From Planctomycetota bacterium (lineage in GTDB: Bacteria > Planctomycetota > Planctomycetia > Gemmatales > Gemmataceae): DNA of 64,000 bases. Each line of letters starts with the position of its first letter. The stretch's first letter is position 1. Of the stretch, positions 1 to 13,789 are shown piece after piece. The notes under the pieces are model-generated. The model had not been told where the DNA came from. It saw only the letters and a program-made list of their open reading frames with translations, and did not search any database. The stretch spans positions 1 to 64,000 of the forward strand of contig JAIOPV010000131.1 in the NCBI GenBank assembly GCA_021413735.1, in the 5' to 3' direction. A program made the position numbers and the translations under genes.

Positions 1-13
1 TGCGATGATTCTT

Positions 14-101: not shown

Positions 102-1925
102 ATGGACCAAGAGTTGCCGCCCGGTTGTCTCGTGATTCTCATTCCGCTGTCGGCCTCGATGGCCGACGATGCGCGAGTGTGGCTCGCCCACCGACTCACG
201 CCCGACGGCGAAGCGGAAATTCGCGACATCCCGAAGTCGCTCGCCGCTCACTTTCTCGCTGATGAACTGATCGAAGCACTCGCAAACACGCTCGCCGGCG
301 GCTACCCCATTCCGCTCGATGTCGCCGTTCTCGGATACGGTGCAAACGACGACAGCTCGTTGAATCTGATCTCACTGCTGTCCGGTGCGAAGCCAACAAA
401 TCGCCTCGTGCCGCTGTCAGATGTCGCGGGATTGCCAGTCGAACCGCGTGGGCGTGAAGGTGATCCGCGAAAGTGGACTTCTCGCGTCGAATGTGTCGGC
501 GCAGCGCCGGCAGCGGTCGCGCTTGCGGAAGTGTACAAGTTTGTTTCGCTCTGGCTCACGGGGCGATTCACTGCCCGGCCGCCGGTCATCGTTCACGTCA
601 CGGATGGCAACGGCATCGACGACCATTACAAGCGAATCGCCCGCTCGTTCGGGTTGCTCGTCACAGGCTACGGGCCAGCACGGTTGCTTCACGTCGGCTT
701 CGCCCGCGATGTTGAACCAACGCTGTGTGGTGCGTGGCCCGAGCCAGTGCCCGATGCGTGGGCCGGGTTGATGGGCGTGTCGGCGGTGCTTCCCGAGGAA
801 GCCGAGGGCCGACCGTCGCGGTTCGCACTTTCGGTGAATGACTGGGCGCTGATCGACGCATGGAGTGCGATCTTCGACCTGAACTGGAATGAGGATTCTG
901 TCGGTTGGCGAGACGAGGCCGGCGACCGCTTCGACCCACCCACAGCTCGCGGCATGTGGACGCAAAAGATGGGCAACACGCCCGAGCAGTGGGAAGATGC
1001 TTATGCCACAGAACCTGCGTCCGGAGTGGCGGTGGTTGCTGACGGGGCAAGTAGCGGCATCTACTGTCGGACCTGGGCGGATCGGTTGGCGAAACGGTTT
1101 ATAACGGATCGCCCGGATGTGCGCGATCCGATTGCGCTCAATAAATGGATTCACGGACTGCGTGCGGAGTGGCGTGCGGCAATCGACTATGACAAACTAA
1201 ACTGGTCGAAGAAGGCCAAGGTCGACGAAACGGGCGCAGCGGCCACATTCCTGTCGCTGGAAGTGGGACCGGCCGATGAAGCGGGGAATCGTCCGTGGCG
1301 AGCATGTGCGGTCGGCGACGCGAGCTTGTTCTGGATTCGCAATGGTCGGCTTCGCGGTACGTTCCCGGTTGTCGCGGCGGATCAGTTCGGTTCGGCACCG
1401 ATGCTGATTCGGTCGAACGCGGGATACAAGACGCTAACGCTCGGAGCTGCGGGAACGTGTCGGCCTGGGGATCGCTTCTTGCTAGCAACGGATGCCGTGG
1501 CCGCCCGACTCCTGAAAAGCGCTGCGACAAGTTCTGGGGTTGATTGGCTGCGATTCGAGACGATTGACGAAACGGCCTGGCGTGATGAACTCGACGTTCT
1601 GCGCAAGGCGAACGACATGGTGAACGACGACTGCACTCTCGTCACACTGCGGGTTACGGGCGGCGAAGATGTGGCGAGCGGGGGTGGGAAGCAGGGGGAG
1701 TCCCCTGTTGAAGCGCCGACAGTTGTTGAGCCGATCGTTGAGGCAGTGCCAGTTGTTGAAGAGTTGGCAAGCAGAGGGCATGAGTCCCCTGTTGCCAGTG
1801 AACGTGAACCTGTTCTGAACGGAACAGAACAGGGGGTTGACACCCCCCGCTCGCCCGACGAGCCGGAAAACGAACGGACCACCACCAGGGACGGTTTCTC
1901 GGATTCGACGGACCCAACCGTCTAA
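102..1925 (+). CDS. vWA-like / PP2C-type serine/threonine phosphatase fusion
   Basis: 607 residues from the ATG that follows AGGAAATCG; earlier in-frame starts lie inside the palindromic repeat and give an unlikely N-terminus. Residues 1-200 resemble a von Willebrand A fold: a first strand LVILIPLSASMAD and a later strand VIVHVTDGNG. Residues about 295-520 match a PPM/PP2C phosphatase: VVADGASSG near 313, a TGAAATFLSLEV strand, AVGDASLFW, LLATDAVA and the terminal NDDCTLVTLRV. PP2C enzymes remove phosphate from Ser/Thr using Mg/Mn bound by such Asp residues. The last 85 residues are low complexity and coded partly by degraded palindromic repeats. No signal peptide is seen, so a cytoplasmic location is likely. 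It heads a same-strand block with two membrane vWA genes. Confidence 0.8.
   Translation: MDQELPPGCLVILIPLSASMADDARVWLAHRLTPDGEAEIRDIPKSLAAHFLADELIEALANTLAGGYPIPLDVAVLGYGANDDSSLNLISLLSGAKPTNRLVPLSDVAGLPVEPRGREGDPRKWTSRVECVGAAPAAVALAEVYKFVSLWLTGRFTARPPVIVHVTDGNGIDDHYKRIARSFGLLVTGYGPARLLHVGFARDVEPTLCGAWPEPVPDAWAGLMGVSAVLPEEAEGRPSRFALSVNDWALIDAWSAIFDLNWNEDSVGWRDEAGDRFDPPTARGMWTQKMGNTPEQWEDAYATEPASGVAVVADGASSGIYCRTWADRLAKRFITDRPDVRDPIALNKWIHGLRAEWRAAIDYDKLNWSKKAKVDETGAAATFLSLEVGPADEAGNRPWRACAVGDASLFWIRNGRLRGTFPVVAADQFGSAPMLIRSNAGYKTLTLGAAGTCRPGDRFLLATDAVAARLLKSAATSSGVDWLRFETIDETAWRDELDVLRKANDMVNDDCTLVTLRVTGGEDVASGGGKQGESPVEAPTVVEPIVEAVPVVEELASRGHESPVASEREPVLNGTEQGVDTPRSPDEPENERTTTRDGFSDSTDPTV
1674..1856. 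repeat. Degenerate palindromic repeats inside the phosphatase 3' coding end
   Basis: The outer arms GCGAGCGGGGGT (1674-1685) and ACCCCCCGCTCGC (1842-1854) mirror each other. Between them lie two more pieces of the same family (AGTCCCCTGTTG twice). They match the arms of the intact element at 14-82. The reading frame stays open through them and codes a tail rich in Glu, Val, Pro and Ser. Confidence 0.7.
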
Positions 1926-1942
1926 CCTCCTGCGAGGAACTT

Positions 1943-4630
1943 ATGTCCTTGTATCGCCTCAAAGCCCCTGCCTTCGCCCTGGCAGCAATTCTGCTGACCA
2001 ACGGGTCGATGCGTGCCCAGGACAAACCCGACGGCCCCGCCATTCTTGAAAAGGTCAAGGATGGTGCTGGCCTCACGAAGCTGAAAGAGAAGCTCGCGGC
2101 CGACCCGGTTGGGTCGCGCTTCCGCGTCGATGGCTTCTCGCTCACCGACGACAAGGCACTGAAGGTTGCCGGCGTCGCGCTCGTGCCCGGCGGAAACGCC
2201 GAAGATCAGGCCGATGCCGAGAAGACGATTCGCAACAAGGTCATCGCGACGATTCAGGACATCGCTGACGCCAAGGAATTCAAGGACTTCGAGTTCACCG
2301 ACAAATCCGCACGCGGCGACAAGCTCCCGCATCTGCTGCTACAGAAAGCCGCAAACGAAGCCGGTAAAACCGATCGCGCTGCCGACGAAGTGAAACTCGC
2401 TGACTCAAAGTTCGACGCCAAGGGAAAGCTCGTCATCACCGGCGTTCGCGGCAACGACCCGAAGACGCTGCGGTTGCTCGACGCGGCAATTCCGAAGGTG
2501 TTGGCAGAGAACCCCGCTGCCGAGTCGAACGGCAAGCCCACGCTCGAACTGACGCCGTTGAAGGAAGGCACCGAGTGGCCGCTGTCGCCAGTCGCGATTC
2601 AGAAGGCTCTCGCCACCCCAGAGACTCGTTCCCGCATTCGCGTTGATCGTGCGTTCCTCGTGGGCACCCCCGCGAAGATGGACGAAACGAACCCAACTGG
2701 CGTCGCATGGGCATACGCTCTTGGCGGCATCGTGATTGGCAACGACAAGCCCGACACGAAAGCGATTGAAGCCGCCATCGCCAAGGGCACAGCCGCAGCA
2801 GGCTGGCCCGCGATCAAAGACGGCGACCTCGAAGGGCTGACGAACGCGGACAACCGCGTGCCCGATCCAGGTCCGCACTTCCAGAAGGCCATCGCCGAGA
2901 AGCCGGCGCTCGACGGCGTTCGCATTGATAGCCGCACCGAGTTTGGGCCTGATGGAAAGCTCATGTTGACGGGTCTTCAACCAGGACTCGACGACAAGCA
3001 ACTCGCCGAACTGACGCAAACCGTTCGTGGGGTTCTGACAGCACTCGGCACGGGTGGCGACGCCAACCCAGGCTACAAGAAGCTCGCCGAGAATGGCGTT
3101 TCGATTGACAAGTTGGAGAAGGTGAAGGTCCGTGAGCTGCACGCCGACCTGCGTAAATGGGCCACCGAAAACCTCGACGATGTTCGGCTAAATCGCCTCT
3201 ACTTCGATGAGCAGAGCAAGCTGGTTCTGACGTGCGAGGCCCCTGACGACGCGGTGAAAGCGATCGTCGAGAAGCAACTGATTGATCGCGCCACGAAGGT
3301 CATTCCAGGGCTGAAGGCCATCGAACCAATGCCGGTGACCGAACCGAAGAAAGACCCCGAAGACAAAAAGGATCCCGAACCCAAGAAGGATCCGCCCGAA
3401 GAGAAGAAGGATCCCAAGGAACCGAAGAAGGATCCTGAAGACAAGAAAGATCCGCCTGAGAAGAAAGACCCTAAGGAACCTGAAAAGAAAGACCCCGAAG
3501 AGAAGAAAGATCCGAAGGAGCCCAAGAAGGATCCCGAAGACAAAAAGGATCCCAAGGAGCCTGAAAAGAAAGACCCCAAGGAACCCGAAAAGAAGGATCC
3601 CGAAGAGAAGAAAGAGAAGGACGGAGCAGTGTCGTTCATCGCGGCGCGTGCTCAGGAACCACCAAAGACCGGCGACGGTGGCGGCGACAACCCCAGCAGC
3701 ACGCCACAAGTGCAGTTCACCAAGTTCAAGGGTGGACTCACGAAGTTCCTTCAACAGATGGTCGTCGATCCCAAGAACAAGCAATGGGATTCGCTGCTCA
3801 TCGAACGCGGCTACTTCAACGAAAACAACGAGTACGTTGTGCGAGGCGTCGCGAATTCGCAGGAACAGCGTAAGGCGTTCGGGGAATATCTCGACTCGCT
3901 CAAGGGCGACCCCCAGTGGGCGCCGTATTTCAGCCCGAAGCCGCACGGCACGCCCGATCTGGCAGTCATTCCGATGGGCAAGCTCGTCGAGCGCACGCAA
4001 CGAGTAATGCCTGCGTACAGCGTCTTCGATGGCATCCGCATCATCTCTGCACGATACGTGTATGTCGATGACAAGGTCGATCCGGGCCAGAAGCTCGTGT
4101 TCGACGCTCACATCGTCGGTCGCCCAGATGTGAACGCCGCCACGGAACTCAGCAAGATGATCGCGTCGGATCGCAAGTTCTACGGTCGTCGGCTGCCCCG
4201 GAATCGTGGCGGGTTGGAACGCCCAATCGAGATTCGGGCTGTTCCCGAGGATGTGGCCGCAAGCGATCAGGTCGGCAACTTCACCGAGGGCTTCGCCGCG
4301 CTGGCGATCCTCAAGGGCGAGATGGCGAAGGCTCGCGAATGGGTGGACGCAGGGTTGCTGCACGCTCCGCACTTGTCGTCGGTGTGGTTCCTAAGCGCGT
4401 ATTATCACCATCTCAAAGGTGACGCCGAGTTGGTTCGCCGCGACCTGTACCGCATGATCGAACTCGAAGATCCCCTCGGCTTCGATGGGCCGACGCAGCG
4501 GAAGCGGCGGTATCGCGTTGCCAAGGATTTGCAGGGCGAGAAGCGAGACCAAATGGAGAAGATCTGGCTTGCGTTGTGGAAGGAATACAAGGACGGCGGC
4601 AAACCCATGACGTTTGCCGAAACGAAGTGA
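1943..4630 (+). CDS. Secreted protein with Lys-Asp-Pro repeat linker, function unknown
   Basis: 895 residues, with GAGGA seven bases before the ATG. An N-terminal signal peptide (LKAPAFALAAILL, likely cleaved near MRAQD) points to export. Residues 30-465 hold several similar 90-110-residue units with alternating strand/helix patterns and repeated phrases such as SRFRVDGF, SRIRVDRAFL and GVRIDSRTEF; these may be BON-like modules, but I am not certain. Residues 468-560 are an almost pure array of KDPE(D/E)KKDP(K)EPK units. The C-terminal 330 residues repeat the module type again (LLIERGYFNENNEYVVRGVA) and end in a helical, possibly TPR-like part. The gene lies 17 bases after the phosphatase, so co-transcription is likely. 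Confidence 0.75.
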   Translation: MSLYRLKAPAFALAAILLTNGSMRAQDKPDGPAILEKVKDGAGLTKLKEKLAADPVGSRFRVDGFSLTDDKALKVAGVALVPGGNAEDQADAEKTIRNKVIATIQDIADAKEFKDFEFTDKSARGDKLPHLLLQKAANEAGKTDRAADEVKLADSKFDAKGKLVITGVRGNDPKTLRLLDAAIPKVLAENPAAESNGKPTLELTPLKEGTEWPLSPVAIQKALATPETRSRIRVDRAFLVGTPAKMDETNPTGVAWAYALGGIVIGNDKPDTKAIEAAIAKGTAAAGWPAIKDGDLEGLTNADNRVPDPGPHFQKAIAEKPALDGVRIDSRTEFGPDGKLMLTGLQPGLDDKQLAELTQTVRGVLTALGTGGDANPGYKKLAENGVSIDKLEKVKVRELHADLRKWATENLDDVRLNRLYFDEQSKLVLTCEAPDDAVKAIVEKQLIDRATKVIPGLKAIEPMPVTEPKKDPEDKKDPEPKKDPPEEKKDPKEPKKDPEDKKDPPEKKDPKEPEKKDPEEKKDPKEPKKDPEDKKDPKEPEKKDPKEPEKKDPEEKKEKDGAVSFIAARAQEPPKTGDGGGDNPSSTPQVQFTKFKGGLTKFLQQMVVDPKNKQWDSLLIERGYFNENNEYVVRGVANSQEQRKAFGEYLDSLKGDPQWAPYFSPKPHGTPDLAVIPMGKLVERTQRVMPAYSVFDGIRIISARYVYVDDKVDPGQKLVFDAHIVGRPDVNAATELSKMIASDRKFYGRRLPRNRGGLERPIEIRAVPEDVAASDQVGNFTEGFAALAILKGEMAKAREWVDAGLLHAPHLSSVWFLSAYYHHLKGDAELVRRDLYRMIELEDPLGFDGPTQRKRRYRVAKDLQGEKRDQMEKIWLALWKEYKDGGKPMTFAETK

Positions 4631-4715
4631 GTGGAGCGGTGTCGCCAACGGCGACACCTTGCGGTCCCGATAAGATCGTCGCTACACAAATACTAATTGA
4701 ACGTTCGCACGTCCG

Positions 4716-4742
4716 AACCCACCCACTCACCAGGGTGGGTTT
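4716..4742 (+). terminator. Intrinsic terminator after the KDP-repeat gene
   Basis: AACCCACCC and GGGTGGGTT form a nine-pair stem with an 8-nt loop, ending in a short T run. It sits about 85 bases after the preceding stop codon and may separate it from the vWA pair. Confidence 0.6.
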
Positions 4743-4855
4743 TCGCATCTGTAGCCACTAGACCAACGCCCTTCGCGCAGTCATCATGAAGCCCGGTCTG
4801 CTCGTGCGAATGAGAACTCGGCAGGTCGCGACGAAACGTCTCTCCGAGGGAAGAC

Positions 4856-7102
4856 ATGCCCGCTCCGAAGATGCTCTCGGGTTTGCCCAAACCCGTGCTG
4901 TTTGCTCTCTATGGTGCCGTCGGCGGGCTACTCGGTGCTCTCGTATTCGGTGAGCCACTGTACGCCGTCCTCGAACCCGAGAAGGCCGCAACTGGGCGAC
5001 CCGAACCCGAAGTGGCCGTCGCCGCGTCGCCGGAAATTCCACTCCCCCTCGACGGCAGCAATCCGTTCGTGGTCGAGATCGCTCGAGGTGAGTTCGACGA
5101 ACCCGTAACCGTGCGATTCGAGAACCTCCCGGCAGGCGTGACCATCGACCCCATCACCATCGCGAAGGGGCAAACCAAAGGGAACGCGACCGCAACTGCT
5201 CGCGGTGCGGCAGTCGCTGTAAAGCCGATCAAGGTGATTGCCGAGGCCAAGGTCGGCGGCAAACCCGTGACCGGCTCGACAAGCACCAGCGTCGCGGTGT
5301 CCGATCCGTCGCGACCGCAAGCCGACATCATGTTTGTTCTCGACGTGACCGCCAGCATGCAGAACGAGATCGACGGTGTGAAGAATGGCGTTCGCTCCTT
5401 TGCCGCGGCACTGCAACGCAACAAGATCGACTTCCGAATCGGCCTCGTCGCATTTCGCGATCTGACGTTCGATGGCCCTGCTGCCATGCAAGTCTTGAAG
5501 TTTAGGGGCGACGTGTTCACATCCGATGCCGAGGCGTTTCGTGATCAGGTCGGCACACTGCTCGCCTCAGGCGGCGGCGACATTCCCGAGAGCAGCCTCG
5601 AAGCAGTAACCGAAGCAACGAATCAGCCATTCCGCAAATCCGCGACGAAGGTGATTCTGCTTATCACGGATGCACCGCCGAAGGTTCTCGACCAAAACGC
5701 TCGGCACAGCGAGGCGTCAATTCCGGCAGCCGTTCAGCGAGTCGCAGGCATCGTGAAGAACAAGGGCATCGACTCCGTTCACCTCGTCGTTCCGAATGGG
5801 AAAGTCAACCAGGCGGGAGTAGCGAATCCGGTGCTGTTGCCAACGTATGAACCGCTTCGCGAGGCCGGGCTTGAGAAGGCAAAAGGTGAGTTCTTCGAGC
5901 TGGCCGATGTCGGGGCTGGCGTTGGGTTCGATACGCTCCTCAACAAGTTTAGCGTTCGCGTGACTGAAGCGGCGAAAGCCAAGAACCCCGAGGGCAAGTT
6001 GCAGGTTGCGGGCGAAGCGAAGGCACCGGAACTCGGGCAGAAGTCGCTGCAATCGAACAAGGAGTACACGAAGGGGTCGGGGGTTCGACTCGCGATTCTC
6101 AGCGCCGTGTGGACGGCGGCAATCGCGGCGCTCGTGTGTCTGGCGTTGGTCGCGGGTCAGCATCACTACCTGCGAGGAACGCTACCGGATGCAATGGGTC
6201 TCGGCACCGGATTGGGAGGCGGGTTGGTAGCGGGGTTGGTTGGCGGAGCTGCGGGGCAGGCGCTTTACATGATCGCGCCGGATAGCAAGTTCCTCACGAT
6301 CATCTTCCTGCTGTTCGGTTGGGCGTTGCTCGGCGGGCTTGCGGGCGTCGGGCTGTCGCTGTTCATTCCGAACTTGAAGAAGGTTCACGGGCTGGCTGGC
6401 GGTGCCATCGGTGGGGTGGTCGGCGCGATCGGGTTCATGCTGGTGTCGTCGTTCACCGGCGACATCGTGGGGCGGCTCGTGGGTGGGTTCCTGGTCGGGT
6501 TCTGCATCGGGCTGATGGTCGCGATTGTGGAAGCGGCGTTCCGGCGTGCGTGGCTCGAAGTGCGTTACGGCGAACGCGAGACGATCACCGTGAACCTCGG
6601 GCCGGAGCCTGTGAAGATCGGTGGCGACGGTCCGGCGTGTACGGTGTGGGCACGCGGTGCGCCACCGCTGGCACTGCGATACTTCATCCGCAACGGGCAG
6701 GTGATCTGCGAGGATTCGCCGACGCGAACAGAGTCTACCGTTTCGGATGGTGATGCTCGCGAAGTCGGCAACGTGCGACTCACGGTGCGAACCGGAACGA
6801 GTGCAGCACCGGTTGAGAATAAGCCTCCAACTCGTCCGGCACCCGCTCCGAAGCGTACACCCGAACCCGCACCAGTGGCCCTCGACGACGATCCAATGCC
6901 GATGCCGATGCCGGTGTCACCGCCACCAGCGGCACCGAAACCAGCAGCAGCACCGCCGCGACCAACCGCACCCGCGCCGGCACCTGTGCAGGCCGCGAAG
7001 CCGAGCGGCCCGCGCGATCCTGACGCTTGCCCTGGATGCGGTCGCAAGAACCCCGGACGCCCCGGCGCGCGATACTGTATGCTCTGCGATAACACGTACT
7101 GA
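4856..7102 (+). CDS. Membrane vWA protein with FHA-like domain and C-terminal zinc ribbon (copy 1)
   Basis: 748 residues; GAGGGAAGAC precedes the ATG. Order of parts: a hydrophobic segment at 13-35; a beta-rich part at 40-150; a vWA domain from about 155 with the MIDAS variant DVTASM near 163 and the later TDAPPK; a cluster of Gly-rich membrane helices at about 410-570; an FHA-like stretch from 570 (VNLGPEPVKIGG) that lacks the usual Ser/His phosphothreonine-binding signature; a Pro-rich linker; and a C-terminal zinc ribbon with two CxxC pairs (CPGCG, CMLC) ending DNTY. The vWA domain likely binds a partner through a metal ion. The next gene is a close paralogue with the same architecture. 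Confidence 0.85.
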   Translation: MPAPKMLSGLPKPVLFALYGAVGGLLGALVFGEPLYAVLEPEKAATGRPEPEVAVAASPEIPLPLDGSNPFVVEIARGEFDEPVTVRFENLPAGVTIDPITIAKGQTKGNATATARGAAVAVKPIKVIAEAKVGGKPVTGSTSTSVAVSDPSRPQADIMFVLDVTASMQNEIDGVKNGVRSFAAALQRNKIDFRIGLVAFRDLTFDGPAAMQVLKFRGDVFTSDAEAFRDQVGTLLASGGGDIPESSLEAVTEATNQPFRKSATKVILLITDAPPKVLDQNARHSEASIPAAVQRVAGIVKNKGIDSVHLVVPNGKVNQAGVANPVLLPTYEPLREAGLEKAKGEFFELADVGAGVGFDTLLNKFSVRVTEAAKAKNPEGKLQVAGEAKAPELGQKSLQSNKEYTKGSGVRLAILSAVWTAAIAALVCLALVAGQHHYLRGTLPDAMGLGTGLGGGLVAGLVGGAAGQALYMIAPDSKFLTIIFLLFGWALLGGLAGVGLSLFIPNLKKVHGLAGGAIGGVVGAIGFMLVSSFTGDIVGRLVGGFLVGFCIGLMVAIVEAAFRRAWLEVRYGERETITVNLGPEPVKIGGDGPACTVWARGAPPLALRYFIRNGQVICEDSPTRTESTVSDGDAREVGNVRLTVRTGTSAAPVENKPPTRPAPAPKRTPEPAPVALDDDPMPMPMPVSPPPAAPKPAAAPPRPTAPAPAPVQAAKPSGPRDPDACPGCGRKNPGRPGARYCMLCDNTY

Positions 7103-7151
7103 ATCGGTATGGCAACGCCGCAAGCGGCGACAACTCCGGAGACTCGTTCAC

Positions 7152-9464
7152 ATGCCCGCTCCGAAGGCACTCTCCATGCTGCCGAAGCCGATCCTGTTCG
7201 GCCTCTACGGTGCCATCGGCGGGCTACTCGGTGCCCTCGTCTTCGGCGAAATCCTCTGGTGGGTTCTCAAGCCACCAGCAGCCGTCGCCAGCCTACCTGA
7301 ACCACGAGTCGCCATTGCCGCGTCGAAGGATGTCGAGGTCTTCGTCGAAGGGCGAAACAGCTTCCCGGTGCAGATCGCGCGTGCAGACTTTGAGGGCCCG
7401 GTTACCGTTCGGTTCGACGATCTACCAACGGGAGTGACCGCTTCACCCGTCAACATTCCCGCAGACAAAACCGAGGGCGAAGTGGTCGTGATGGGCGGGC
7501 GAGCTGCTCCCGTGACCACGAAGACCGCGAAGCTCGTGGCCGAGGCGACCGCCAATGGTAAGACCGCAAGCGCCGATGCTGCCGTGAGCGTGAAGGTCTG
7601 GGATCCGCCGCGACCGCAAGCAGACATCGTGTTCGTCCTCGATGTCACATCGAGTATGCAGTGGGCCATCGACGATCTGAAGAACGGCATCGGCAAGTTC
7701 GCCGACACGCTCGCGAAAGCACGCATCGACTATCGCCTCGGGCTCGTCGCATTCCGCGATGTCACCGTGAAAGGCGAGAAGGTCGAGGTCGTCGAGTTCA
7801 ACACGGGTGACGTGTTCACGGCGGACGGCACGGTGTTCCGCGAGAAGGTCGGGACGTTCCGGGCGTCGGGCGGCGGCGACATTCCCGAGAGCAGCCTCGA
7901 AGCGATTACCGCAGCGAGCAATATGCCATTCCGCAAGTCCGCGACGAAGGTGTTGCTGCTCATCACGGACGCCCCGCCCAAGGTTCTCGATCAGGGTGGT
8001 CGGCACAGTGATGCGGCCATTCCCGCAGCGGTACTGCGAACCACCGACGCCGTGAAAGCCGCAACCATCGACTCGGTTCACCTCGTCATTTCGAAGCTCG
8101 ACCTCGGGGATTACAAACCGTTCATGCTCGCCGGTATCGACAAGAGTGGCGGCAAGCACTTCGAGCTAGGCGACATCGTTCGCGGCGATGAGGGCTTCGA
8201 TCCCGTTCTCGCGACGTTCAGCACGGCGGTCACGGAAGCGGCGCGTGCGAAGATTCCCGACAGCAAGCCGTTGGTGGCGGAACGCGGTGCGGCTCCGGTT
8301 CTCGGTGTGAAGAGTTTGCAGTCGGGCGAGCAGTCGGCAGCGGGCACCGAGGGAAAAGTGGTTCTGCGTAGCGGTGTGTGGGCGGGGGCCATCGCGGCGC
8401 TCGTGTGTCTGGCATTGCTCGCGGGTCAGCATCACTATCTTCGCGGCACGCTGCCCTCGTTCGGCGGCATCATCGTCGGCTTGCTCGGCGGGTTGATCGT
8501 GGGGTTCGTCGGAGGGGCTGCGGGGCAAGGGTTGTTCTTCCTCGCACCTGCGAATGCCACACTCGCGACGGCCTTCCGCGTGCTTGGCTGGGTGCTTCTC
8601 GGCGGACTTGCGGGTGCGGGGCTGTCGCCGTTCATTCCGAACTTGAAGTGGCCTCTGGGGCTTCTCGGTGGCGCAATCGGGGGGGCGGTCGGTGCGGCTG
8701 CGTTCTTGTTTGCGTCGGATGTGGGCGAGCGCTTGGGGCGGATCGTTGGCGGCCTCATGGTCGGGTTCTGCATCGGGTTGATGGTCGCGATTGTGGAAGC
8801 AGCGTTCCGGCGTGCGTGGCTCGAAGTGCGTTACGGTGCGCGTGAAACGATCACAGTCACGCTCGGGCCAGAACCCGTGAAAATCGGTGGCGACGCGAAG
8901 ATGTGTACGGTGTGGGCACGCGGTGCCGCTCCGCTGGCGTTGCGGTTCTTCGTGCGAGATGGAAACGTCATCTGCGACGACGCCGTGATGAAACGCGAAA
9001 GCCCCGCTGCGGATGGCTTCTCGAAGGAAGTCGGCAACGTCACCGTGACCGTTCGCACGGGCAGCGGCACGACGAACGCACCGGTTCAGGCACCCACCGC
9101 ACCAAAGCCAGCGCTGGCTAAAGCCGCACCCGCTCGCGTGGCAGCGGATGACGACTATGATGGCCTTCCGATGCCGATCAGTCCGCCACAAGCACGGCCA
9201 ACACCGACGCCAATCGCCGAGGCACCGTCAGCGCCCGCGACGAAACCCGCAGCACCGCCACCGAAGCCAGTCGCGCCACCGGCACCGACCGCAACGAAGC
9301 CGCCCGCTCCCGCGGCTCCGCCGAAACCCGCCGCACCCGTAGCAGCACCGAAACCTACTGCTCCTGCGGGACCGAAGAATCCGGACGCGTGTCCAGGCTG
9401 TGGTCGAGTGAACGCGGGCAAACCCAAGCAACGTTACTGCATGGTCTGCGATAACACGTATTGA
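7152..9464 (+). CDS. Membrane vWA protein with FHA-like domain and C-terminal zinc ribbon (copy 2)
   Basis: 770 residues. The ATG at this position matches the start of copy 1 (MPAPK.LS.LPKP) and follows GGAG; an open frame further upstream only overlaps copy 1 in another frame. The parts repeat those of copy 1: first membrane segment, vWA domain with MIDAS DVTSSM near 163, Gly-rich helices from about 405, FHA-like stretch from about 560, an Ala/Pro/Lys-rich linker longer than in copy 1, and the ribbon CPGCG/CMVC ending DNTY. The spacer between the copies is 49 bases and carries one half of a palindromic repeat (7112-7128). This is a tandem duplication that has kept both products intact. Confidence 0.85.
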   Translation: MPAPKALSMLPKPILFGLYGAIGGLLGALVFGEILWWVLKPPAAVASLPEPRVAIAASKDVEVFVEGRNSFPVQIARADFEGPVTVRFDDLPTGVTASPVNIPADKTEGEVVVMGGRAAPVTTKTAKLVAEATANGKTASADAAVSVKVWDPPRPQADIVFVLDVTSSMQWAIDDLKNGIGKFADTLAKARIDYRLGLVAFRDVTVKGEKVEVVEFNTGDVFTADGTVFREKVGTFRASGGGDIPESSLEAITAASNMPFRKSATKVLLLITDAPPKVLDQGGRHSDAAIPAAVLRTTDAVKAATIDSVHLVISKLDLGDYKPFMLAGIDKSGGKHFELGDIVRGDEGFDPVLATFSTAVTEAARAKIPDSKPLVAERGAAPVLGVKSLQSGEQSAAGTEGKVVLRSGVWAGAIAALVCLALLAGQHHYLRGTLPSFGGIIVGLLGGLIVGFVGGAAGQGLFFLAPANATLATAFRVLGWVLLGGLAGAGLSPFIPNLKWPLGLLGGAIGGAVGAAAFLFASDVGERLGRIVGGLMVGFCIGLMVAIVEAAFRRAWLEVRYGARETITVTLGPEPVKIGGDAKMCTVWARGAAPLALRFFVRDGNVICDDAVMKRESPAADGFSKEVGNVTVTVRTGSGTTNAPVQAPTAPKPALAKAAPARVAADDDYDGLPMPISPPQARPTPTPIAEAPSAPATKPAAPPPKPVAPPAPTATKPPAPAAPPKPAAPVAAPKPTAPAGPKNPDACPGCGRVNAGKPKQRYCMVCDNTY

Positions 9465-9532
9465 ATCGGTTCAGACGGTATCGGGCTTCTACAATGCATC
9501 TGCAACTCGTCACCCCATTCCCGGCAATCGCC

Positions 9533-11875
9533 ATGCGACATCTTGTGTTGTTCGTTCTGCTCCTGAGCTTCGCGGGCGGCTGTTCCAAGAAGAAGCCGGA
9601 ACCAGTTCCAGAACCCGAACCAGAAACCAAAGCCGATCCCGTCGAGACACTCGCCAAGGATCGGGCTTACTGGTTCAAGGGTCTCAACAGCAAAGACGCG
9701 AAAGTTCGACAAGACGCAGCCGACGAACTCACCGCGTGGGTCGCCACGGACCCCGACACCGTGGACACCCTTATCGGACTGCTCAAAGACAGAACCACGA
9801 CCGGTGCGGGCAAGACTCTGCCCAATCGGTTCAACAGCACTCGCGAACTGGCAGTTGACATCCTGAACCGTGGTGGACCAAAGGGGCAGGCCGCACTCAA
9901 AGACAGGGGCTTTGCGATCCTCCGCGAAGGGCTGAATGATCCCGATGCCGCAATTCGCGAACACACGCTGCACACCATCGGAACGCTCGGCTCAATGGCA
10001 AAGCCGCTGTCGCCCGATGTTCTCAAACTCTGCACCAACCCAGACCCCAACATCCACCGAGTCGCGTTCGACACGCTGCGAGCAATTGGAGGAGCCGAAC
10101 CCCTCGACATCACGAACATGCTCACCAGCAAACGGCACGACATCGTCAGACTCGCGGCCGAACAACTCTCCAGCTTCAGCAAGGTGCCAGAAGAGGCCGT
10201 GCCGAATCTGATCGTGGGTCTGAAAGACAAGTCACCCGCTATTCGCACTCCATGTGCTGCGGCACTGGCCACCATCGGGCCGAAGGCCGCTCCTGCGCTC
10301 GACGCACTCATCAAGGCCATCAACGAGACCTACCCGAAGGAAGTTGACCCGATGGCCAACGCTCCCGAACTCAGTGCTGATGCCGCATACTGGAGCGCAC
10401 TCACTGCAATCGGTGAACCAGCCGTCGCTCCGACCGCGGGGCTTCTCAAGCACACCAACCCATACGTTCGGACTTACGCCGCTCAAACGCTCGGCGAAAT
10501 CGGTGAGCCATCGAAAGTCGCCGCCGACAAACTCAAGGCGGCGCTCAAGGATGATTACGGGAATGTCGCAATCGAAGCGGCGTGTACGTTGTGCCGGATC
10601 GGGGAAGGCAAGGATGATGCAGTTGAGTTGGTGAAAAAAGCCATGGATGCTCCCAACACCATTGCCCAAACCGCAATCGAGGCGATTCCGCGAATGGGCG
10701 ACGCTGGCAAGTCGCTCATTCCCGTGGCGTTGGAAAAGCTCAAAAGCGAGAACCCATACGCTCGCTACGCTGCGGTTGGAGTGGTCGGAACGCTGGAACC
10801 CGCCGAGGCAGCGAAGTATGTGCCGGAGTTAGCCAAGCTTGCAACCGACAACGGGGCAGGTGCGGGAACGCCAGAATTGGAGCGTCGAGGAGCGCGTGAG
10901 ATCCGTCTGCGAGTGGCTGCGGTGCTGATAAAGCTCGGCCCGCTGGCGTCGCCTGCTGCAGAAGCAATCGGGAAAGCGATTCCGAACGAAGGCGACTCGG
11001 GTCTCCGCGATCAGTTCATCGAAGTGTTGGTTTCGATGGGTGAGGGCGCGAAGCCTGCGTTCCCCGCGCTTTTGACAATCGCAGCGGATCCCTCGACACA
11101 ACCCGATCGCCGTGCTCACTTGTTCGATGTGCTCACGATCATCGCGCCTGGTTCCAAGGAGGTTTCCGGTATCTTGCTGAAAGCCGCAGGTGAAACGGGT
11201 TCGCCAGTGCGATTCGTCGCGATCACAAAGATGGCGAAGTTCGATCCGATGCCGCCCGAGGTACTCGCGAAATTGGTCGAGATGGCAACGACAGATCGGG
11301 CAACGAACGTGCGGGCTGCCGCGCTGCGGGCGTTGGCGTCGGCTGGGGTTCGTGCGAAGCCCGTGAAAGCAGACATCGAGAAAATTGCAAGCGGTTCCAT
11401 TCCCGAGTTCGCACTGACGGCCAAGGTGACGCTCGCCGGGATTGATGGCAACCTGGCGAGCGTCGCTGGCGATGTCCGCACGGCTCTGACCGACAAGAAC
11501 GCTCAGGTGCGGCTCGCGGCTGTCGATGCGTTATTTCTGATTGGGCCGGAAGCGTCCGATGTTCCCACGCTTCAGAAGTTGTTGATGGAACGCGGCGACA
11601 GCACGAAGGAAGCAGCAGCGAAGTGCGTCGGGCGGCTCGGTCCGGCGGGGAAGGATGCCGTGCCGCAGCTCGTTCGGCTGCTCGATGACCGCGATGGAAA
11701 CGTGCGGATCGCAGCGGCGAACGCGCTCGGCGACATTGGCCCCGCCGCGAAGGACGCGGTTGAAAAGCTGAAGGCGATGCGAGGCATGGGCAAGCGAAAC
11801 GAGTCGAGCGACCCCACGGCGGGACCAGCAGCGGGAGTTGCGTTGACCAAGATCGTGGTGAAAGAGAAGAAGTGA
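9533..11875 (+). CDS. HEAT-repeat lipoprotein
   Basis: 780 residues from the ATG that starts MRHLVLFVLLL; this start gives a clean lipoprotein signal with lipobox FAGGC at the Cys, so anchoring to a membrane is expected. A short Lys/Pro/Glu segment follows, then about 700 residues of HEAT-like helical repeats with typical phrases such as DGNVRIAAANALGDIG and NPYVRTYAAQTLGEIG. HEAT arrays bind partner proteins. It begins 68 bases after the second vWA gene on the same strand and may be part of the same unit. An upstream TTG would place 24 extra residues before the signal and is unlikely. Confidence 0.85.
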   Translation: MRHLVLFVLLLSFAGGCSKKKPEPVPEPEPETKADPVETLAKDRAYWFKGLNSKDAKVRQDAADELTAWVATDPDTVDTLIGLLKDRTTTGAGKTLPNRFNSTRELAVDILNRGGPKGQAALKDRGFAILREGLNDPDAAIREHTLHTIGTLGSMAKPLSPDVLKLCTNPDPNIHRVAFDTLRAIGGAEPLDITNMLTSKRHDIVRLAAEQLSSFSKVPEEAVPNLIVGLKDKSPAIRTPCAAALATIGPKAAPALDALIKAINETYPKEVDPMANAPELSADAAYWSALTAIGEPAVAPTAGLLKHTNPYVRTYAAQTLGEIGEPSKVAADKLKAALKDDYGNVAIEAACTLCRIGEGKDDAVELVKKAMDAPNTIAQTAIEAIPRMGDAGKSLIPVALEKLKSENPYARYAAVGVVGTLEPAEAAKYVPELAKLATDNGAGAGTPELERRGAREIRLRVAAVLIKLGPLASPAAEAIGKAIPNEGDSGLRDQFIEVLVSMGEGAKPAFPALLTIAADPSTQPDRRAHLFDVLTIIAPGSKEVSGILLKAAGETGSPVRFVAITKMAKFDPMPPEVLAKLVEMATTDRATNVRAAALRALASAGVRAKPVKADIEKIASGSIPEFALTAKVTLAGIDGNLASVAGDVRTALTDKNAQVRLAAVDALFLIGPEASDVPTLQKLLMERGDSTKEAAAKCVGRLGPAGKDAVPQLVRLLDDRDGNVRIAAANALGDIGPAAKDAVEKLKAMRGMGKRNESSDPTAGPAAGVALTKIVVKEKK

Positions 11876-11880
11876 AATGA

Positions 11881-11930
11881 ATTTGCCGCTTGCGGCGTTG
11901 CACAAGATTGCAACGCCGCAAGTGGCAAAT
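11881..11930. repeat. Palindromic repeat between convergent genes (GCCGCTTGCGGCG family)
   Basis: Two arms of about 21 nt pair with one mismatch around an 8-nt loop. It lies 5 bases after one stop codon and 7 bases before the stop of the opposite-strand gene, a position suited to a two-way terminator. Confidence 0.85.
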
Positions 11931-11937
11931 ACCAATC

Positions 11938-12609
11938 TCATTTCCGATCCGCAATGACCTGATCGAGTACCATCTTCACGGCCTCGGTCGCGGACTTGCC
12001 GACCCCCGTGTATCCCCGCTTTGCACCATTTCCACTGATCGGCACCGACGCATGGAACGTGTACTGGCCATTCTCTTGCGTCAGCGTGCGATCGGCACGA
12101 GTGACCCCATACTTCGCAAGTTCCGTGAACAGCGGATCAACCCCAGGCGCAACCGGTTCAATGTCGCCCCCAGGCAACACACCGCCGACTTGCCGCAATG
12201 GAACGCGGTTGTCTGGCGTGTCGATCTTCAATTCCTCGCCGTCGTTCTTCTTGGCAGCGAGCGAAGCAGGCGTGGTTCCCGGTCCCGGGTTGAACGTGCT
12301 CTTGAACCGTTCCGGATCGTCCGAATAGCCAACGCCGGTCCTGTCGCCGGACTTGCCGGTTGGCGTCGTGAGCGGATCGGGTCGGCCCTTTGCTCCAATT
12401 CCACCGCGATCAGGAAGAGGCACATTTTGCGGCGGAATGCGTGATCCTGCGCCGTAAACGAGCGGATCGCGCATTGCCCCTTGTGAGCCGCCACCAACAT
12501 TCCCACCACCGTCGCGGGACTTGCATCCGGCGAGCGCAAGAGCCCCCATCAAGCCGGCGATGCAGGCCCGTTTCGAGAAGCTTCGGTTTCGCGGGTTCGT
12601 CATGGTCAT
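11938..12609 (-). CDS. Lipoprotein of unknown function
   Basis: 223 residues. GGGAGG lies nine bases before the second ATG of the MTMT start. The signal peptide ends in the lipobox LAGC at about residue 28. Residues 30-130 are Gly/Pro-rich and disordered. The last 80 residues (ending VKMVLDQVIADRK) look folded: DPLFTELAKYGV, then a strand-like YTFHASVPI. I do not recognise the family. Confidence 0.7.
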   Translation of the reverse strand: MTMTNPRNRSFSKRACIAGLMGALALAGCKSRDGGGNVGGGSQGAMRDPLVYGAGSRIPPQNVPLPDRGGIGAKGRPDPLTTPTGKSGDRTGVGYSDDPERFKSTFNPGPGTTPASLAAKKNDGEELKIDTPDNRVPLRQVGGVLPGGDIEPVAPGVDPLFTELAKYGVTRADRTLTQENGQYTFHASVPISGNGAKRGYTGVGKSATEAVKMVLDQVIADRK

Positions 12610-12804
12610 CTTGACCCGCCTCCCAGAGCGACTACACCAGCGAGATATTCACCGGGACAGTCCACCACCTGTACTCTTGCTGTTCGAGTGTCCGGAGTCC
12701 ACCTCGTGTGGAGCGAAACCGCAGCCTGGTAAGCTGCGGCGGGTAGGGCGGTTCCCGGTGGGAAGACTTTTCCAACGACATAACCACGGTGAGAGGCGGG
12801 TTCA

Positions 12805-13789
12805 ATGGCGGTTTTCCGGATTGCGGTGATCGGTGGCGACGGAATCGGTCCAGAAGTGATCGATCAGGCTATTCGCGCAGCCGAGTCTGCTGCTCGCAAG
12901 TTCGACGGTGCGGACCTTCAATGGAACCGACTTCCGTGGAGCACGGCCTATTACAAGAAGCACGGGCGAATGCTGCCCGAAGACGGCTGGGAACAACTCA
13001 AGCCGCACGACGCGATTCTGTTTGGCGCTGTGGGCGATCCCAGCGTTCCCGACAAGATCACGGTTCACGAACTGCTCTTGCCGATGCGGCGCAAGTACGA
13101 TCAGTATGTGAACCTGCGGCCGGCGTATCTGTTCGCGGGGGTTCCGTGCCCGCTCGTCGGCAAGAAGCCCGGCGAGATCGACATGCTGGTCTTCCGCGAG
13201 AACACCGAGGGCGAATACGCTCCTGTGGGCGGAAACCTGTATCCGGGCACCGAACATGAGATTGCGGTGCAAACCGGCATCTTCACGCGGCGGGGCTGCG
13301 AGCGAATCCTGCGGGCGGCATTCGAGACAGCTAAGAAACGCCCTCGCAAGAAGCTGACGAGCATCACGAAGTCGAATGCGCAGGTTTGGGGGCTTGGGCT
13401 GTGGGACGACGCATTCGAAGCAGTCCGCAAAGATTACCCAGACGTGCAAAGCAGCTCGCTGCTCGTGGACGCGGCCGCGATGGACTTCGTTCGCAAGCCA
13501 GAAGCTTTCGACGTGGTGGTGGCGAGCAACCTGTTCGGCGACATCCTCACCGACCTGAGCGCCGCGGTGACGGGTAGCATTGGGCTGGCGAGTTCGGCGA
13601 ACATCAACCCGACGCGCAAGTTCCCGAGCATGTTCGAGCCGGTTCACGGCAGCGCCCCGGACATCGCGGGAAAGGGCATCGAGTGCCGTGAGCAAGGTAC
13701 TGGCCGAGGCGAAGGTGCTCACGCCTGACCTGGGCGGCAAGCACACAACGACCGACATTGGCAACGCTGTGGTCGAAGCGATTGGTTGA
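12805..13789 (+). pseudogene. Tartrate/isopropylmalate-type dehydrogenase, broken by an out-of-frame deletion
   Basis: The frame opens as an NAD-dependent beta-decarboxylating dehydrogenase: GGDGIGPEV at the N-terminus, NLRPAYLF, the active-site phrase FRENTEGEY, the Lys in SITKSNAQ, and the metal-binding NLFGDILTD. The variant residues around VPDKITVHELLLPMR fit the tartrate/D-malate dehydrogenase branch better than LeuB. After GSAPDIAGKGI the frame runs into 15 unrelated residues and stops at 13728. The true C-terminus (KVLTPDLGGKHTTTDIGNAV) continues in the +1 frame and stops at 13789. About 30 residues normally found between these points (the NPIGAIWS.ALML helix) are absent. The enzyme is therefore probably inactive, unless this is a sequencing or assembly error. 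Confidence 0.75.

Follow-up and report, generated by a model that had tools for sequence, protein, structure and literature searches.

The window, that is, the whole stretch of 64,000 nucleotides analysed here, corresponds to bases 1–64000 of contig C148 of a 9.8-Mb Gemmataceae genome in 293 contigs, and its start is the contig edge. At its left end, five open reading frames (ORFs) lie on the + strand: a vWA-PP2C fusion (102–1925), a repeat protein that is probably secreted (1943–4630), two paralogous membrane vWA proteins (4856–7102 and 7152–9464), and a HEAT-repeat protein with a lipobox-like N-terminus (9533–11875). ORF calls, PADLOC, Pfam and fold matches agree with the domains that a preliminary description had assigned to these five same-strand genes. 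The genes are real and linked, but the block taken as a unit in that description represents only five of 11 genes: it is the right half of an 11-gene cassette, 24.7 kb long and on one strand, that begins outside the window.

The left neighbour is contig C31 of the same genome, which carries the six upstream cassette genes, including a predicted kinase. The gene order is DO-GTPase2, Ser/Thr kinase, GAP1-N2, coiled-coil transmembrane (TM) protein, membrane FHA-ribbon protein and TerY, followed by vWA-PP2C, the secreted repeat protein, the two membrane vWA-FHA-ribbon proteins and the HEAT lipoprotein. Specifically, C31 (locus L034) encodes, on the minus strand of the contig, the DO-GTPase2 protein at 10712–12877, the kinase at 7701–10598, the GAP1-N2 protein at 4785–7643, the coiled-coil TM protein at about 3206–4717, a membrane DUF2135-like/FHA/ribbon protein at 966–3122 and TerY at 22–918. 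The last codons and the stop of TerY occupy window positions 1–8 (+), and the remainder of the gene is on C31. A hydropathy scan finds membrane segments in six of the 11 cassette proteins.

C31 and the window start share an exact overlap of 29 nt. Because 16 of these 29 nt are part of a dispersed repeat, the overlap by itself is no proof of the join. TerY lies upstream of vWA-PP2C in 20 of 21 relatives with the fused protein, and in the 21st, G020, the contig stops there; in addition, a search with vWA-PP2C returns a TerY-like match just 5′ of vWA-PP2C in relatives and also at the start of C31. A small ORF is predicted in the gap between the two genes in G015 and G012. In the present genome, the gap holds two inverted copies of the dispersed repeat (14–82) and is the site of the assembly break; this repeat is found at 49 genome sites with up to three mismatches, versus none for a reversed-pattern control. 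Its 47 sites besides 14–82 are often arranged in pairs that face each other across some tens of bases. A second short repeat, CAACGCCGCAAGCGGC, has nine window copies with at most one mismatch, versus 0.01 expected (positions 7113, 11885, 11911, 13800, 13833, 40595, 48379, 59015 and 61639).

The product of 102–1925 is composed of a degenerate vWA domain, a PP2C domain with complete motifs, and a low-complexity tail. The proposed vWA-PP2C fusion is supported by the PADLOC profiles for PP2C (E = 1.9e-24, residues 289–519) and TerY (E = 4e-5, residues 131–232); Pfam PP2C_2 scores 18.5 bits, under its cut-off of 24, and a PDB sequence search gives no match at E ≤ 1. The PP2C motif residues are invariant in 13 of 13 aligned sequences. 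The vWA half does not retain the metal site, as the MIDAS aspartate is present in none of the 12 covered rows (of 13), being replaced by P, R, S or A. The extreme C-terminus, past the variable tail (window about 1880–1922), carries a short motif like DGFSDSTDP, found in 6 of 24 rows by a strict pattern and in 12 of 17 uncut genus rows by a looser reading, and we ask whether it might be a candidate docking or phosphorylation site.

Each membrane vWA protein has one N-terminal and about five later hydrophobic segments and carries a CxxC-CxxC ribbon at its C-terminal end. Membrane vWA protein 1 consists of an N-terminal TM segment, a vWA domain with DxTxS, a TM bundle, an FHA fold, a Pro-rich linker and a zinc ribbon. 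Pfam VWA_4 matches protein 1 with E = 1.4e-13 and protein 2 with E = 4.8e-10, and a PDB sequence search with protein 1 returns rows at E ≥ 0.026 only. The DxS/TxS pattern is present in 7 of 9 rows of each of the two families, and the ribbon is kept in 9 of 9 and 7 of 9 rows, respectively, and in 15 of 18 rows of the DUF2135-like family, some of the misses being fragments. That third membrane protein, encoded on C31, has a sub-threshold DUF2135 hit and an FHA-ribbon end like that of the pair.

The FHA-fold domain of membrane vWA protein 1 (6539–6796, +) is modelled at a pLDDT of 91.1, and the corresponding FHA-like domain of protein 2 (8805–9062, +) is 72% identical to it. The model has 13 Foldseek matches in the PDB at E ≤ 0.001, of which nine carry FHA, GarA or OdhI in their titles and four are chains of 2-oxoglutarate dehydrogenase complexes, and VIA Z reaches 12.2; the FHA domain of ArnA (5a8i) is among the fold matches, and type III secretion proteins, e.g. 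YscD and PscD, are among the lower structural-match rows. FHA domains usually read phosphothreonine with a pocket that includes the motifs GR and SxxH. Compared with this motif, an R after the invariant G, or an H in the next strand, is found in none of the 24 rows, and none of the 24 members gives a Pfam FHA hit. The membrane vWA proteins with FHA-like and zinc-ribbon ends envisaged in the preliminary description are thus borne out by VWA_4, the FHA fold and the ribbon, with the qualification that the predicted FHA beta-sandwich is without the usual phosphothreonine-pocket residues. These domains are therefore unlikely to act as phospho-readers.

The secreted repeat protein has no match in Pfam, NCBIfam or PADLOC. 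Its N-terminus resembles a signal peptide by reading; the hydropathy scan flagged no segment there. The N-part (2021–3322) is predicted at a pLDDT of 91.6, and Foldseek gives no match at E ≤ 0.001; the best rows are SAM synthetases mixed with type III secretion periplasmic domains (YscD, CdsD and PrgH) at TM-scores to about 0.2, VIA Z is at most 7.2 with OsmC-like rows on top, and no BON hit is found in 13 members. In the absence of a confident fold match to this model, we claim no fold assignment. Between the secreted-protein gene and membrane vWA gene 1 lies a possible terminator hairpin followed by TTTT (4714–4744, +); the fold of 4700–4760 has an energy of −21 kcal/mol (z −3.17, none of 200 shuffles equally stable), and the hairpin is not in the list of the consensus scan. 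The HEAT lipoprotein proposed earlier is supported by Pfam HEAT_2 (E = 1.9e-53) and by a lipobox-like start, LSFAGGC, found by reading. The HEAT gene is the loosest member of the row: it lies within the row only in the present genome (G000), G016 and G022, and a divergent copy adjoins the DO-GTPase in G017.

The preliminary description had guessed at a kinase to the left, and C31 carries an STK_OB-type kinase together with TerY, partners that strengthen the signalling idea put forward there. The kinase matches PADLOC STK_OB with E = 1.8e-55, the match spanning only model positions 3–288 of 562; HxDLxxxN and DYD are present in 12 of 12 covered rows (of 13), and the lysine in 11 of 12, with one R. 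TerY matches its PADLOC profile with E = 9e-80, and its MIDAS DxSxS is intact in 21 of 21 covered rows (of 22). The GAP1-N2 protein has a C-terminal TM segment and matches Pfam GAP1-N2 (E = 1.3e-8, 35.4 bits versus a cut-off of 24) and GAP1-M (23.3 bits versus a cut-off of 24); in G011 both domains are over the cut-offs. The DO-GTPase2 match is under the Pfam cut-off of 27 (E = 2.8e-4, 21.1 bits), and the G011 protein scores 34.3 bits. The DO-GTPase gene is 5′ of GAP1 with the kinase between them, and three genes separate kinase and TerY here, the two being in different loci in part of the genus. Furthermore, this genome has a second, canonical TerY-PP2C-kinase set (L128, G000:C140:1-20000), upstream of which lies a relative of the DUF2135-like membrane FHA-ribbon protein.

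The preliminary description had suggested a check of co-occurrence, and in relatives the genes do stay together, with the cassette split into two loci in part of the genus. All 11 cassette genes are collinear in G016 and present in G022, in which just a piece of the coiled-coil protein is seen, in an ORF that it shares with the next gene, and the HEAT match is in two frames. In G015, the DUF2135-like and HEAT genes are missing and there are three membrane vWA genes; nine families remain in G021 and G023, where two genes have been inserted behind the DO-GTPase; six families remain in G006, and eight in G004 if weak matches are counted. By simple gene calls over about 40 kb, G016 has seven and G022 six of the 21 flanking genes of the present genome, so that conservation of the row there is only weak evidence. 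None of the flanking genes is shared with G015, G021, G023, G006 or G004, two of which are from other genera, and the recurrence of the row where no flanking gene is shared indicates more than chance. In G006 (C20, L050/L051), the row is followed, after vWA-PP2C, by the gene of a protein of 296 aa that has a GDLHGR motif and, judged by eye, is a metallophosphatase.

The kinase is apart from TerY in G009–G013, G017, G018, G024, G026 and G088. Its locus contains two membrane vWA genes, DO-GTPase, kinase, GAP1 and coiled-coil in G013; DO-GTPase, kinase, GAP1, coiled-coil and the DUF2135-like protein in G017, G018 and G024; DO-GTPase, kinase and GAP1 in G011 and G088; DO-GTPase and kinase in G026; and the kinase alone in G009, G010 and G012. 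In addition, GAP1-N2/M and TerY are found in one ORF in four genomes: G024 (693 aa, L129:2575-4653), G026 (700 aa, L130:8284-10383), G011 (692 aa, L131:7396-9471) and the present genome (C269, L127:2-1891). Both GAP1 domains are over the Pfam cut-offs in the first three, and the C269 fusion is cut by the contig end. PP2C and kinase genes are near the fusion in L129 and L130.

Profile searches covered 102 genomes of the order, 19 of them from the genus. vWA-PP2C is matched in 48 genomes at E ≤ 0.001 and in 22 at E ≤ 1e-70, the latter being all 19 of the genus together with G004, G006 and G088 from other genera; the weaker matches are mainly PP2C domains or triads. The kinase is matched in 66 of 102 genomes, and its long form is seen in G004, G006, G088 and, except for G020, throughout the genus (18 of 19); GAP1 is matched in 24 (19 at E ≤ 1e-50); DO-GTPase in 21 (18 at E ≤ 1e-50); the secreted protein in 29 (16 of 19 in the genus); and the membrane vWA family in 87 at E ≤ 0.001, mostly via the vWA parts. 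The genomes with fused vWA-PP2C include all 18 DO-GTPase genomes and 18 of the 19 GAP1 genomes at E ≤ 1e-50. G050 has GAP1 without the fused protein. G020, which is 94% complete, has vWA-PP2C and GAP1 pieces and no kinase or DO-GTPase match. G009, G010 and G012 are without DO-GTPase, GAP1 and the secreted protein and keep the kinase, TerY, vWA-PP2C and the DUF2135-like protein; as the three group as a single clade in both the kinase tree and the vWA-PP2C tree, their shared absence counts as one event. The two trees have their main clades in common, a pattern suggestive of vertical inheritance. Median tree tips are 0.027 for TerY, 0.14 for the kinase and 0.25 for vWA-PP2C.

When 84,980 species genomes were scanned by pattern, 33 loci were obtained. 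In sixteen of them (L084–L099), the fused protein is present, whole or truncated by a contig end; these have Gemmata, Gemmataceae or other Planctomycetes names in their titles, and many match genomes of the order search. Of the remaining 17 loci, 15 combine TerY with a kinase and a separate PP2C, L106 has PP2C alone, and in L115 the kinases are further away; the 17 come from Verrucomicrobia, Anaerolineae, Salinibacteraceae, Acidimicrobiaceae, Umezawaea, Poribacteria, Eremiobacterota, a Proteobacteria MAG and Planctomycetes. With Gemmata-derived profiles, GAP1 is found in one of the 17 non-cassette triad loci (L103, the fusion), and a Pfam spot check of 10 of 94 predicted ORFs found no GAP1. 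In the same spot check, a helicase-PLD protein adjoins the Umezawaea triad.

The cassette combines a TerY-P-type triad with a GAP1-N2/DO-GTPase system and is a larger variant of systems known elsewhere. DO-GTPase/GAP1 systems were described by Kaur et al. 2020 (PMC7159879), where, in the part of the article available to us, a kinase with an adjacent PP2C and a standalone vWA is reported in 10% of GAP1-N2 neighbourhoods, restricted to actinobacteria. The cassette resembles this theme in having a DO-GTPase with zinc ribbon and TM segments, a GAP1-N2/M protein with a C-terminal TM segment, a kinase and a PP2C that are predicted to be active, a standalone vWA, and putative membrane vWA partners. 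In contrast to the theme as given there, its hosts are Planctomycetes, namely Gemmataceae genomes, its PP2C is fused to a second vWA, its kinase is between DO-GTPase and GAP1, and it includes a HEAT lipoprotein and three membrane FHA-ribbon proteins as additional parts, with no FN3 hit in the 11 proteins by Pfam. Like the TerY-P triad (PMC11090510; PADLOC models), the cassette has TerY, PP2C and an STK_OB-type kinase. Unlike that triad as the accessible text presents it, with three adjacent separate genes, the kinase is not adjacent to TerY and PP2C, the PP2C is a fusion, no C-terminal OB or ribbon is detected in the kinase, and there are large membrane and GTPase additions. Sulfolobus ArnA/ArnB (PMC6509490), a zinc-finger FHA protein and a vWA protein under kinase/phosphatase control, are a precedent for an FHA-vWA pair regulated by phosphorylation; however, according to the portion available, they are archaeal, separate proteins with the phosphothreonine pocket kept, whereas FHA, ribbon and vWA share one membrane protein here and the pocket residues are absent, making this a works-like comparison only. 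The five-gene block was first put forward as a candidate undescribed system, which is only partly right: the parts are of two described kinds, TerY-P triads and GAP1-N2/DO-GTPase systems, and their pairing is published for actinobacteria (PMC7159879). For the planctomycete form, we found no description in the open-licence literature searched, as far as its texts were available. What is new is this form, with a PP2C fused to a second vWA without the metal-site aspartate, and the membrane vWA-FHA-ribbon adaptors.

The row kept with no shared flanks, the split loci that still group cassette genes, the GAP1-TerY fusions, the co-occurrence and the joint absence together argue for one system, probably a switch with which Gemmata-group bacteria sense the state of the envelope or defend themselves. 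The parts, their linkage, the intact catalytic residues and the co-inheritance are computed observations. On balance, we favour a membrane-proximal phosphorylation switch that gates a GTPase assembly on envelope signals. In such a switch, the state of the envelope or a ligand would be read by the secreted protein, the lipoprotein and those vWA domains that lie outside the membrane, and the membrane proteins would relay the signal inward via cytosolic FHA-fold and ribbon ends. The kinase and PP2C would set a phosphorylation balance, TerY and the pseudo-vWA on the phosphatase might help to target it, and the balance would gate the membrane-anchored DO-GTPase/GAP1 pair. Points that speak against this reading are the gene content of G020 and G050, the DO-GTPase2 score under the Pfam cut-off in the present genome, the absent FHA pocket residues, and the joint absence in G009, G010 and G012 counting as one event. 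The topology is predicted from hydropathy and charge only, it is solely this topology that suggests an envelope role, and we infer the signal, substrates, direction and output of the switch.

The main rival, which we consider distinctly less probable, is a conflict system against phages or predators, in which a disturbed envelope would trip the phospho-switch and GTPase assembly, so that the invader is contained or the cell is halted. It accords with the prediction, in the part of Kaur et al. available, that DO-GTPase/GAP1 systems are conflict systems of multicellular bacteria (PMC7159879), with reports of anti-phage action for TerY-P modules with STK-OB kinases (PMC11090510, PMC7699616), the PADLOC model that the cassette kinase matches, and with the fast evolution of the secreted and coiled-coil parts, which are 30–45% identical within the genus versus 79–98% for TerY. 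However, no nuclease, pore or toxin domain is over cut-off in the row, vWA-PP2C is in all 19 genomes of the genus searched, the kinase and phosphatase trees look vertical, and inspection by eye gives the window's flanking genes as metabolic or unassigned. The lack of a recognised killing domain over cut-off and the genus-core distribution favour the envelope role, with defence as the less probable reading. DO-GTPases have also been tied to membrane stress (PMC11237479, as far as its text was available).

An unlikely further reading places a GTPase assembly, gated by phosphorylation and core to the genus, across the Gemmata envelope: the pseudo-FHA membrane proteins would build an inner-membrane scaffold with the secreted protein, which bears a weak likeness to type III secretion periplasmic ring proteins, and DO-GTPase/GAP1 would organise the envelope or internal membranes in the manner of a cytoskeleton, not serve in defence. 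We give very little credence to a Ter-type metal or tellurite stress response: TerY-P triads have been linked to tellurite resistance (PMC11090510, in the portion available) and the MIDAS of TerY is intact, but in the Pfam scans none of the 11 row proteins matches TerB, TerC or TerD, and the GAP1/DO-GTPase partners and membrane vWA proteins are foreign to that scheme. Least probable of all, unrelated neighbours sharing a strand by chance, to which the rarity of the HEAT gene in the row and the many membrane vWA relatives in cassette-less genomes might point, are largely refuted by the row conserved across different flanks and genera, the regrouping in split loci, the GAP1-TerY fusion and the joint absence, and could survive for the HEAT gene alone.

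Synteny, regrouping after splitting and gene fusion indicate joint action of TerY-P-type triads and GAP1-N2/DO-GTPase systems in a second phylum, and the membrane adaptors named here could be what brings a signal to them. With some Gemmata strains in culture, defence versus envelope organisation can be tested by gene removal.
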